A stretch of DNA of 32,745 bases, from contig WJIO01000208.1 of NCBI GenBank assembly GCA_014730235.1, forward strand, positions 1-32,745, given 5' to 3'. This document shows positions 1,139-11,505 of the stretch, piece after piece. The DNA is from Candidatus Poribacteria bacterium (lineage in GTDB: Bacteria; Poribacteria; DTPJ01; WJIO01). The notes under the pieces were generated by a model that searched no databases, was not told the DNA's origin, and saw nothing but the letters and a program-made list of their open reading frames with translations. The position numbers and the translations under genes were made by a program. Numbering within the stretch: the first letter of the stretch is position 1; each line of letters begins with the position of its first letter.

Positions 1139-1167
1139 TTGACATCTTAACGTATGTATAGTATATT
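1139..1167 (+). promoter_or_regulatory. lexA promoter: TTGACA-N17-TATATT with a LexA-operator-like sequence in the spacer
   Basis: TTGACA 1139-1144, spacer 1145-1161 (tcttaacgtatgtatag), TATATT 1162-1167; 50 bp upstream of the lexA ATG. Confidence 0.7.
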
Positions 1168-1216: not shown

Positions 1217-1825
1217 ATGCGAAAAAAGCTGACTAAAAGACAAAAACAAGTTCTTGATTTTATAGTGGACCATATTCAGAATTCAGGTTATCCTCCAACA
1301 GTCCGTGAGGTAGCCAATGAACTGGGAATTTCGTCCAAGGGTGCTTATGATCATCTAACTGCAATAGAAAAGAAAGGATATATTAAGCGTGATCCAGCAA
1401 AACCTCGCGCTATTGAATTAATGGATTTTGTTGCAAATAGAATTAACGGGCCCTTGATTGAAATACCTGTTGTTGGTAAAGTTGCCGCTGGTGAACCTCT
1501 TTTAGCAAACCAGAACATTGAGAGAACTATTAGCCTATCCAAGGATCTGGTGCGAACTGAAAATCCTTTTGCATTAAGAGTAAAAGGTGATAGTATGATT
1601 AACGCTGGAATCCTGGAAGGTGATTTTGTTATTGTAAAGCAACAAAAAAATGCTGATCAAGGTGATATAGTAGTGGCTTTAATTGGTGAAGAAGCTACAG
1701 TAAAACGTTTCTTTAAAGAGAAAGATCACATTAAACTTCAACCTGAAAATACAACAATGGAACCAATAATTACTAATAATGTAAATATAATGGGTAAAGT
1801 TGTTGGTCTTTTCCGGGAAATGTAG
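1217..1825 (+). CDS. lexA: LexA repressor
   Basis: N-terminal winged HTH (LTKRQKQVLDFIVDHIQNSGYPPTVREVANELGISSKGAYDHL), Ala-Gly cleavage site (VAAGEP), catalytic Ser (GDSMI) and Lys (ATVKRF). Confidence 0.97.
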   Translation: MRKKLTKRQKQVLDFIVDHIQNSGYPPTVREVANELGISSKGAYDHLTAIEKKGYIKRDPAKPRAIELMDFVANRINGPLIEIPVVGKVAAGEPLLANQNIERTISLSKDLVRTENPFALRVKGDSMINAGILEGDFVIVKQQKNADQGDIVVALIGEEATVKRFFKEKDHIKLQPENTTMEPIITNNVNIMGKVVGLFREM

Positions 1826-8165: not shown

Positions 8166-10052
8166 ATGGGTAAAGGATACAACGGAAAAATTCTTAGAGT
8201 TGATCTGACAGAAGAAAAAACATGGATAGAAGAACCCGGAGAAGAAATTTACAGAACATATCTGGGCGGCGCAGGACTGGCTGCTTATTATATCATAAAG
8301 GAACTCCCCAAGGGAGTTGATCCCCTTTCACCGGATAATATGCTTGTTCTGGCATGCAGTGTAATAACCGGCACACCAGTACCCGGCGCATCCCGTTTTA
8401 CGGCTGCTGCCAAATCACCCCTCACCGGTGCTTATGGTGAAGCCGAAGCCGGCGGATGGTGGGGACCCGAATTGAAATGGGCGGGATTTGATGCCATAAT
8501 CATAAAAGGCAAAGCGTCAAAACCCGTTTACCTGTGGATTAAAGACGGTGAAGTTGAGATTAGAGACGCAGGTAAGATATGGGGTATGGAAACCGGAGAT
8601 TCTCAGGATGCTATAAAGGAAGAATTGGATGAGGAAAAAGTCCGTATTCTTCAAATCGGCCCCGGCGGTGAAAAGATGGTTCGCTATGCGTGCCTTATAA
8701 ACGAATTAAAACACGCCAATGGTCGAACAGGCATGGGCGCGGTGATGGGATCAAAAAACCTCAAGGCTATAGCTGTCCGGGGAACAAATAAGATTGAGAT
8801 GGACGACAAGGAATCAGCCCGGGAAGTCATAAGATGGCTGCGGGAAAACTATACATGGCAAACCGGCGACATGCACGATATGGGAACAGCAAGATTAACA
8901 CCATCCCTTTCTGAAAACGGTATACTCCCGACGCGCAATTTCAGAGAAGGTGCTTTTGAAAAAGCTTATGATATCAGCGGCGAAAAGATGAAGGACACGA
9001 TACTGGTAAAGCGCGGTACATGCTATGCCTGTTCTGTGGCTTGTAAACGAGAGGTAGAGGTAAATGAGGGACCTTACACAGTAAACAGAAAATACGGAGG
9101 TCCTGAGTATGAAACAGTTGCCTCATTGGGTTCTCTCTGTGGAATTGGTGATCTTGCTGCCGTATCCAAAGGCAACGAGCTTTGCAACAGATATACCCTG
9201 GATACCATATCCACAGGCGTTTCTATCGCCTTTGCCATGGAATGTTACGAAAATGGTTTGTTGACAAAAGAGGATACCGGAGGTATTGACCTGAGATTTG
9301 GCAATGCCGATGCTATGGTGAAAATGGTGGAGATGATCGGCAAACGGGAAGGATTGGGTAACTTGCTGGCCGAAGGTGTAAGAATAGCGGCTCAAAAAAT
9401 CGGTAATGGAGCGGAAAAATATGCCGTGCATGTAAAAGGCGAGGAAGTTCCTATGCACGAACCAAGGGGTAAGAGAAGCCTTGTTTTGGCCTACTCTTTA
9501 TCTCCCACCGGCGCAGACCACATGGAAGCCCCCCACGATGTCGTTTACGAGATGTTTAATTCGGAAGGACAGCACCCCTTGGCTCCTATGGGCTTAGTAG
9601 AGCCTGTGGACACAATGGAAATGGGACCACAGAAAGTAAGGGCTTTCTACTACGCAAAACAGTTGTTTGATTTTTATAACTGTATAGGCATGTGTGACTT
9701 TGTTGGTGTACCAATAGGCCCTCTTGCAATAAATCAGGTGGTTAAACATATAGAAGCCGTTACTGGATGGAATACAAGCCTGTGGGAACTACTGAAGGCT
9801 GGTGAAAGATCAAACGTAATGATGCGTATATTCAATTTCAGGGAAGGCCTGACAAAAGAGGATGACAAGCTGCCAGATAGACTTCACCAGGAACTTGAAA
9901 GCGGTGCTCTTGAAGGTGAAAGAATAGAAGAAGATAAGTTTGAGGAAATGAAGAAAACATATTACCGGATGGCCGGTTGGGATGATGACGGATACCCGAC
10001 GGAAGCTAAGCTGGAGGAGCTTGGTTTGGAATGGATAGAAGAATTTGTATAA
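8166..10052 (+). CDS. Aldehyde:ferredoxin oxidoreductase (tungsten/molybdenum pterin)
   Basis: NGKILRVDLTEEKTWIEE, TYLGGAGLAAYY, SPLTGAYGEAEAGGWWGPELKWAGFDAIIIKG, CYACSVAC cluster motif, late Cys in CIGMCDF. Confidence 0.95.
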   Translation: MGKGYNGKILRVDLTEEKTWIEEPGEEIYRTYLGGAGLAAYYIIKELPKGVDPLSPDNMLVLACSVITGTPVPGASRFTAAAKSPLTGAYGEAEAGGWWGPELKWAGFDAIIIKGKASKPVYLWIKDGEVEIRDAGKIWGMETGDSQDAIKEELDEEKVRILQIGPGGEKMVRYACLINELKHANGRTGMGAVMGSKNLKAIAVRGTNKIEMDDKESAREVIRWLRENYTWQTGDMHDMGTARLTPSLSENGILPTRNFREGAFEKAYDISGEKMKDTILVKRGTCYACSVACKREVEVNEGPYTVNRKYGGPEYETVASLGSLCGIGDLAAVSKGNELCNRYTLDTISTGVSIAFAMECYENGLLTKEDTGGIDLRFGNADAMVKMVEMIGKREGLGNLLAEGVRIAAQKIGNGAEKYAVHVKGEEVPMHEPRGKRSLVLAYSLSPTGADHMEAPHDVVYEMFNSEGQHPLAPMGLVEPVDTMEMGPQKVRAFYYAKQLFDFYNCIGMCDFVGVPIGPLAINQVVKHIEAVTGWNTSLWELLKAGERSNVMMRIFNFREGLTKEDDKLPDRLHQELESGALEGERIEEDKFEEMKKTYYRMAGWDDDGYPTEAKLEELGLEWIEEFV

Positions 10053-10074
10053 ATAAAAACACATTAAACATAAA

Positions 10075-10148
10075 GGCTCTTCCGGGTTCAGTGTGGTAAA
10101 GATAGGAAACTTCTTTATGCTGTCATTACTGTTTTCGCCGGAAGAACC
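10075..10148. mobile_element. Short MITE copy with 8-bp target-site duplication
   Basis: GGCTCTTCCGGGTTCAGTGTGGTAA...CGCCGGAAGAACC; direct repeats AACATAAA at 10067-10074 and 10149-10156. Confidence 0.85.
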
Positions 10149-10150
10149 AA

Positions 10151-10190
10151 CATAAAAAGACGACTTCTATATAGAAGTCGTCTTTTTATG
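10151..10190. terminator. Perfect 20+20 bp palindromic bidirectional terminator
   Basis: cataaaaagacgacttctat|atagaagtcgtctttttatg, with A/T tracts on both sides, between the convergent AOR gene and the 58-aa ORF. Confidence 0.85.
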
Positions 10191-10199
10191 TTCAGATTT

Positions 10200-10376
10200 T
10201 TATAATATTCCCCAACGTTCCGCAGCCCTTCTCATTATTCTTATAGAATGCCAGTCAACACCAGTATTTGAGCCATTTTTCTCATAAAAATTTGTATTTT
10301 CCACCTGATCTAAATTTCCCTGATTTGATTTGATTTTAGAGATTTTATCTTCCACTTCATAGAATGTAATAGTCAT
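10200..10376 (-). CDS. Small hypothetical protein (58 aa)
   Basis: Own translation: MTITFYEVEDKISKIKSNQGNLDQVENTNFYEKNGSNTGVDWHSIRIMRRAAERWGIL*; AGGAGG Shine-Dalgarno ~9 nt upstream (caggaggaataataaaATG); ~24 bp after the 336-aa gene. Below the ORF track size cutoff. Confidence 0.75.
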   Translation of the reverse strand: MTITFYEVEDKISKIKSNQGNLDQVENTNFYEKNGSNTGVDWHSIRIMRRAAERWGIL

Positions 10377-10400
10377 TTTATTATTCCTCCTGTAATATTC

Positions 10401-11411
10401 CTATTGATCACTACTAAACATTTCAAAAGCAGTGGCTTTTATCTCGCGATTTTTCTCTACCAGCCATTTCCATGAACAATCCCCACCCCGGTTTTCAGCC
10501 AATAGGAAATTAAATAATATTGCTTTATTTCTTTCGTTGGGTTTGCCCAGTATTCTATGGATATTAAAAGCCAATTCGCCCCTTGGCAAAGCACCATCAG
10601 CCCATGTATTTATGGCATTATGACACTCTTTGATGAAATTTTCCCATTTACTTACCGGAAGATTATCTTCAGGTAAATTCCCCCGCCATTTAAGAGCACC
10701 AATACTGGAAATCTGAATATCCATATAACGTGTAAATCGGTGTATACAAGGTGGAGAACTGGCTTTTAATATACCTTCCATTATTTCCCGCAGGTTTTCA
10801 TCTCCCATTTCAAGAACCTTTTGTTTTGCTTCTTCCACAAAAGAGTTTATCTTTCCCGGAATGTAAGGTTTATATTCCACGCCGCCTCTTGTAATATAAT
10901 AAGAAGTATAATCCTCATAATCTATCGGTGTCTTTTTCCCGTTATCACCCATTCCTGACAAAACTACTCCCATTAATCTTGCCGCAAGATTAGCGGAAAA
11001 GACCTCTGCAAGAGCTTCTTTTTCTGGAGAATGTTCCCCAAGCCACTGGTTGATCTTTTCAATTACAACTTTATCCGCTTTTATATTATTTTGGAAGTCA
11101 AAACCCAACCATTTTTGAACGCCTAACAAATAGCTGTTTATTAGAGACCACCGTTCTGGAGTCAACTGGTTGTGATAAATTAAATATGTCGGCTTGCCTG
11201 TTCTTACGGCTTTGCATATATGGAGGATATTATTTTTATACTCAGCGTTACCCCAGCAGAAATATGCCGCTTGTGCCATAATAGCCAGAGTATTGTCATT
11301 TACCTTACCAAATTTTTTCTCAAAATCCTTAACTCTGACTTTGAATCTATAATCCATTTTAAGCATAGCTTTACCAAAATCAATTATAGATATGGAAGCT
11401 TGATTTACCAA
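10401..11411 (-). CDS. Hypothetical protein (336 aa), no recognised family
   Basis: TTG start at 11411 with AGGAGGG SD about 6 nt upstream; own promoter at 11477-11505; mostly helical sequence. Confidence 0.75.
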   Translation of the reverse strand: MVNQASISIIDFGKAMLKMDYRFKVRVKDFEKKFGKVNDNTLAIMAQAAYFCWGNAEYKNNILHICKAVRTGKPTYLIYHNQLTPERWSLINSYLLGVQKWLGFDFQNNIKADKVVIEKINQWLGEHSPEKEALAEVFSANLAARLMGVVLSGMGDNGKKTPIDYEDYTSYYITRGGVEYKPYIPGKINSFVEEAKQKVLEMGDENLREIMEGILKASSPPCIHRFTRYMDIQISSIGALKWRGNLPEDNLPVSKWENFIKECHNAINTWADGALPRGELAFNIHRILGKPNERNKAILFNFLLAENRGGDCSWKWLVEKNREIKATAFEMFSSDQ

Positions 11412-11454
11412 TTTGGACCCTCCTAAATATAAGCGATATACAAAACCAGAATTA

Positions 11455-11505
11455 ATACTTAACGTTTGTTAAGTATATTCTACTAAAATTTTATAATCTT
11501 GTCAA
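11455..11505 (-). promoter_or_regulatory. Promoter (TTGACA-N17-TAGAAT) with an adjoining LexA-operator-like perfect dyad
   Basis: Minus strand: TTGACA at 11505-11500, 17-nt spacer, TAGAAT at 11482-11477; dyad atacttaac-gttt-gttaagtat 11455-11476 directly downstream of the -10. Confidence 0.7.

Follow-up and report, generated by a model that had tools for sequence, protein, structure and literature searches.

A predicted LexA-repressed operon of Candidatus Poribacteria encodes a putative accessory protein of a long-form Lhr helicase

Overview

A 32,745-nt stretch of DNA from a Candidatus Poribacteria genome, here called the window, carries a two-gene operon whose strong promoter is directly followed by a perfect dyad. 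Its sequence and related sites elsewhere make it almost certain that this dyad is a LexA box. The best explanation, with a probability of roughly two in three, is that the operon is LexA-repressed and damage-inducible and that its 336-aa product serves as an accessory to a DNA-repair helicase, namely a distinct long form of Lhr. The repair role is favored because the relatives of the 336-aa protein adjoin, or co-occur with, an extended Lhr repair helicase. The initial annotation had proposed a new SOS-regulated module with a checkpoint or defense function. The LexA site in this proposal has strong support from the boxes at lexA, recA, and uvrA, from a sister genome, and from lexA promoters across the phylum. 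The checkpoint or defense function found no direct support, and the gene neighborhood and the co-occurrence with the extended Lhr point to DNA repair.

Structure of the operon

The features of the locus are listed in Table 1. The promoter, previously described as strong, is real: TTGACA-N17-TAGAAT agrees with 11 of the 12 consensus bases, and a scan of 3 kb gave 17 promoter-like sites, of which it ranks first. The dyad, with the full sequence ATACTTAACGTTTGTTAAGTAT, lies right after the promoter as first reported; it directly abuts the -10 hexamer and covers the expected start point. Such overlap or abutment of operator and promoter is found in LexA-regulated SOS genes. The likeness to the site in the lexA promoter also held, with 16 of 22 positions identical. 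Within the window the dyad is the sole match at three or fewer mismatches, against 0.03 expected from shuffling.

Table 1. Features of the operon and of lexA in the window.
Feature	Position	Strand	Evidence
-35 hexamer TTGACA	11500..11505	-	promoter scan
-10 hexamer TAGAAT	11477..11482	-	spacer of 17 from the -35 hexamer
dyad ATACTTAAC-GTTT-GTTAAGTAT, putative LexA box	11455..11476	.	perfect 9+4+9 inverted repeat
Shine-Dalgarno AGGAGG of the 336-aa gene	11419..11424	-	sequence
336-aa protein gene, TTG start at 11411	10401..11411	-	ORF, Shine-Dalgarno, relatives
Shine-Dalgarno AGGAGG of the 58-aa gene	10386..10391	-	sequence
58-aa ORF, ATG start at 10376, orphan	10200..10376	-	Shine-Dalgarno and position
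bidirectional terminator hairpin	10149..10192	.	perfect 20-bp stem, loop of 4
lexA	1217..1825	+	LexA_DNA_bind and Peptidase_S24; TIGR00498, 240.8 bits
LexA box of lexA, TCTTAACGTATGTATAGTAT	1145..1164	+	within the lexA promoter

The description as a two-gene operon ending at a perfect terminator agrees with the sequence, since both ORFs have an AGGAGG at a suitable distance and are followed by the hairpin. The hairpin has an MFE of -28.1 kcal/mol (z = -9.3) and is common to the operon and the convergent gene at 8166-10052. That the 336-aa ORF is coding is supported by relatives 32-36% identical and free of stop codons. The 58-aa ORF may be coding, as its Shine-Dalgarno sequence and position suggest; no credible relative was found in 82 genomes, and searches of Pfam, PADLOC, NCBIfam, and PHROGs with its product yielded no usable match.

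LexA boxes in the same genome

The window's own genome (G000, 5.5 Mb) has both LexA and RecA, the former encoded in the window and the latter on contig C360. Boxes were sought in it by pattern match. The pattern TACTTAACN4GTTAAGTA occurs at four places with at most one mismatch and at none in a reversed control. These are the dyad at 11455-11476 and sites on C115, C210, and C157, and all four have TTGAC(A/T)-N17-TANAAT directly before the box. When the 20-base pattern ACTTAACRTWTGTTAAGTAT was allowed up to three mismatches across the genome, 10 forward and 8 reverse matches were obtained, compared with 2 and 1 for the reversed control. They collapse to about 12 distinct sites, among which are lexA (C135:1145), recA (C360:10203), and uvrA (C53:12081). 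At all three genes the box overlaps the promoter and is related to the dyad, so that the operon has an operator of the type present at these SOS genes of the same genome. The lexA box follows a -35 TTGACA (1139-1144) and overlaps the -10 TATATT (1162-1167), while that of recA reads CTTTAC-N4-GTTAAG.

The LexA encoded in the window is the probable regulator of the operon. The promoter of a second LexA paralogue (C153:5432-6019, L072) contains a different palindrome, AATACATTTGTATT, and this paralogue is for that reason not a likely reader of the dyad. An 81-aa ORF follows it on the same strand, as does a DinB-type polymerase.

Several other promoters in this genome bear similar boxes. At C267:32913-32932 (L026, L075) a LexA-type box overlaps TTGACA-N17-TATACT before a 30-aa hydrophobic peptide, MLDYILASVVMFSSLALFLMIILANQWKNV, possibly a small SOS membrane peptide. 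Separate box-bearing promoters at C157:9352 (L078) and C270:4359 (L079) each precede a gene group with a DUF3795 protein. In the C157 group there is also a protein of 1056 aa that weakly matches a BtrH_N-like family, and in the C270 group a DUF6144 protein. A near-perfect box with the same promoter layout lies at C115:1741 (L073) before a 122-aa glyoxalase/bleomycin-resistance (VOC) gene. The box at C210:1227 (L074) is perfect and has the promoter layout. No clear gene comes immediately after it, and a repeat-like insertion resembling positions 10073-10150 of the window follows. That segment (ccgggttcagtgtggtaaagataggaaacttctttatgctgtcatt...) recurs near the C210 box and partly near uvrA, and looks like a small dispersed repeat.

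LexA boxes in other Poribacteria

A near-perfect dyad is present in only 5 of 85 Poribacteria genomes, one of which is the sister genome G001. There, a perfect dyad precedes thpR and the same-strand genes that lead to recA, and the promoter layout is equal to that of the operon within 2 bases. The four best distinct sites of G001 comprise this thpR-...-recA promoter, uvrA, lexA, and one unassigned promoter. A strong LexA-type box lies between TTGACA and TATAAT at C208:4265-4284 (L151) of G001, with no obvious ORF directly downstream; an SOS promoter or a small RNA are candidates for this site.

In most of the LexA-bearing Poribacteria examined, CTTAA(C/T)-N4-GTATAG is kept between the -35 and -10 hexamers of the lexA promoter. 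A weight matrix built from the lexA promoters of other genomes alone placed the dyad sixth in the window, and about one equally good site is expected per random window. The low rank arises because the second half-site differs, being GTTAAG in the dyad and GTATAG in the lexA boxes. The recA box obtains the same score as the dyad under this matrix. As a matrix from lexA promoters does not single out the dyad, the case for LexA depends on the boxes of recA, uvrA, and the sister genome, and not on the lexA boxes alone.

Conservation of the dyad upstream of orthologues, which the initial annotation had recommended checking, was not seen at the two relatives of the 336-aa gene (G056 and G074), near which a LexA box was sought and no matching dyad was found. 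The genome of G074 has only a divergent LexA, and none was detected in that of G056. A motif shared by the upstream regions of lexA, recA, and lhr in G074 was also sought and not found.

The distribution of lexA itself varies within the phylum. None of the 18 genomes of genus g3 (for example G002, G005, and G010) has a lexA match, and recA is found in nearly all of them. In the neighboring genus g6, lexA is mostly present.

The 336-aa protein family

The 336-aa protein was initially described as belonging to no recognized family, and indeed neither a curated family model nor a solved structure matches it. Searches of Pfam, NCBIfam, PHROG, PADLOC, and PDB gave no match. The best scores in Pfam (E 0.042) and NCBIfam (E 0.033) are far below the cut-offs, and the best in PDB is E 0.49. 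Weak likenesses to CheB, DpsA, and HetR (E 0.03-0.8) were rejected as chance.

Among the 85 Poribacteria genomes, relatives occur in two others, G056 and G074, both Candidatus Poribacteria MAGs of one genus and of the same phylum as the window's genome. They align over nearly the full length. No credible relative was found among about 300 further bacterial genomes or in viral contigs, phages, or plasmids. Two weak outside matches (E 0.002 and 0.006) were set aside, as they cover fewer than 50 residues and one contains stop codons.

The conserved residues of the family cluster in AQAAYxCWxxxEY and PPCxHRxTRYxDIxIxSIGALxWRG, with CxHRxTRYxD as an invariant motif. Structure prediction, which had been recommended for this protein, gave no usable model: the AlphaFold2 output, made with three sequences, is mostly helical and of low confidence (pLDDT 38 and 42).

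Association with a long-form Lhr helicase

In G074, the relative of the 336-aa protein starts 1 bp after a 1802-aa frame (L037) that contains DEAD, DEAD_assoc, WH_Lhr, WH3_Lhr, and WH4_Lhr, which is the full Lhr domain set. Its true start probably lies some 90 codons further inside the frame, at the point from which it matches the protein of the window's genome. In G056 the distance is larger, with Lhr about 3 kb upstream of the relative. The two are separated by two opposite-strand genes (L038:2901-5846), one with an HD-CE domain; these may represent a conflict-system insertion. The lhr gene of the window's genome encodes 1744 aa and is located on a different contig from the operon (C296:2514-7748). 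Its product has DEAD_assoc and is 55.6% identical over 1739 aa to the G074 protein, and no LexA box within three mismatches was found in its promoter.

Of the 85 Poribacteria genomes, 9 have DEAD_assoc (PF08494), and all three carriers of the 336-aa family are among them. The Lhr proteins of the carriers measure 1744-1802 aa and are 50-56% identical to one another across orders; their identity to an ordinary Lhr of 1495 aa, also found in G074, is about 31-37%. They have a C-terminal extension of about 165 aa for which Pfam gives no match. By sequence, the Lhr of the carriers is a distinct subtype with its own C-terminal extension.

Among 384 genomes, the extension and the 336-aa family were each found in three, and the two sets are identical. 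The chance of this exact coincidence is about 1e-5 if the three genomes are independent in 85, and about 0.004 by genera (2/22). G056 and G074 belong to one genus, so that the co-occurrence amounts to two lineages.

Comparison with known systems

The Bacillus-type LexA box is the palindrome CGAAC-N4-GTTCG. The Poribacteria sites are similar to Bacillus-type SOS genes in having an AAC-N4-GTT core palindrome over a sigma-70 promoter, and in a LexA with HTH and S24 peptidase domains. In contrast, the Poribacteria half-site is CTTAAC and not CGAAC. The 336-aa protein differs from the genes of the LexA/RecA SOS regulon in that it falls in no known SOS gene family.

LexA motifs differ between bacterial groups, and 17 motifs were known by 2021 (PMC8565304). 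A literature search found no paper that joins Poribacteria with LexA or names its motif, which limits, and does not prove, novelty.

The mycobacterial Lhr, a helicase of DNA repair, is required against interstrand crosslinks, and its gene shares a PafBC-controlled operon with that of Nei2, a damage-inducible partner (PMC11323726). The combination of an Lhr repair helicase with an operon partner, adjacent in G074 and here predicted to be damage-inducible, resembles this lhr-nei2 operon. However, a family search shows that the Poribacteria partner is not Nei2-like, and the Poribacteria Lhr has the additional C-terminal extension. In the window's genome it is the partner gene, not lhr, that has the predicted damage-responsive promoter, which would be controlled by LexA instead of PafBC.

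The long form of bacterial Lhr is usually 1400-1600 aa, with 1538 aa in E. coli and 1507 aa in M. smegmatis (PMC10953399, PMC11323726). The long-form proteins of the carriers share with these two the DEAD, DEAD_assoc, WH_Lhr, WH3_Lhr, and WH4_Lhr domains. They differ in their greater length, and the last ~165 aa were not found in the Lhr of the other genomes searched.

Proposed mechanism and alternatives

LexA binding, damage induction, the partnership with Lhr, and the repair role of the 336-aa protein are predictions, and together they suggest the following course. In undamaged cells, LexA on the dyad would cover the start point and shut the strong sigma-70 promoter. On DNA damage, activated RecA would induce LexA self-cleavage and the promoter would fire, giving a bicistronic mRNA that ends at the hairpin. 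The 336-aa protein would then accumulate and work with the long Lhr, plausibly through the extension. Together they would probably process lesions such as crosslinks or blocked forks.

A bolder form of this reading, for which the odds are about even, is a new two-part repair machine. It would consist of the Lhr subtype with a C-terminal docking extension and a mostly helical CxHRxTRYxD partner, the supply of which is set by LexA. Its host phylum would have an SOS regulon and a LexA box, CTTAAC-N4-GTTAAG/GTATAG, not found described in the literature.

The alternative that survives best, though unlikely, accepts LexA regulation and takes the product to be an SOS checkpoint protein or cell-division inhibitor like SulA, YneA, or SidA, unrelated to Lhr. 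A gene of this kind is a usual member of SOS regulons, the evidence for LexA control is good, the 336-aa protein is in no known repair family, and the 58-aa second gene is within the size range of small SOS effectors. Against this, the relatives of the 336-aa protein adjoin a DNA-repair helicase or are confined to genomes that have one. Inspection of the 336-aa sequence by eye revealed no membrane segment, and a better candidate is the hydrophobic 30-aa peptide that has a LexA-type box of its own at C267:32913.

Slightly less probable again is that the 336-aa protein and the long Lhr make up a conflict system directed against phages or plasmids, with the small subunit placed under LexA in the window's genome. 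The distribution is rare and patchy (3/384 genomes), the two proteins look inherited or transferred as a pair, and in G056 lhr is separated from the relative by the HD-CE gene and a second unrelated gene. However, neither operon protein matches a PADLOC model, no relatives occur in phage, plasmid, or viral collections, the neighbors in the window are metabolic and housekeeping genes, and characterized Lhr proteins are repair helicases.

That the dyad serves a different repressor as its operator and resembles an SOS box by coincidence is very improbable: its halves are both CTTAAC/GTTAAG, unlike those of the lexA boxes, and some box-bearing promoters drive genes not known from the SOS response (VOC/glyoxalase family, DUF3795), but the same perfect dyad with a near-identical promoter layout precedes the G001 recA operon, recA of the window's genome has the GTTAAG half-site in CTTTAC-N4-GTTAAG, and the second LexA paralogue appears to use the different operator AATACATTTGTATT.

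Significance

If LexA-repressed regulation and the partnership with Lhr are correct, a LexA box and a core SOS regulon would be defined for Candidatus Poribacteria. The SOS response would gain a protein family without a curated match, tied to an unusual Lhr helicase. The pair formed by the 336-aa protein and the long Lhr would make the function of the Lhr C-terminal region testable, together with the question of Lhr partners outside mycobacteria.
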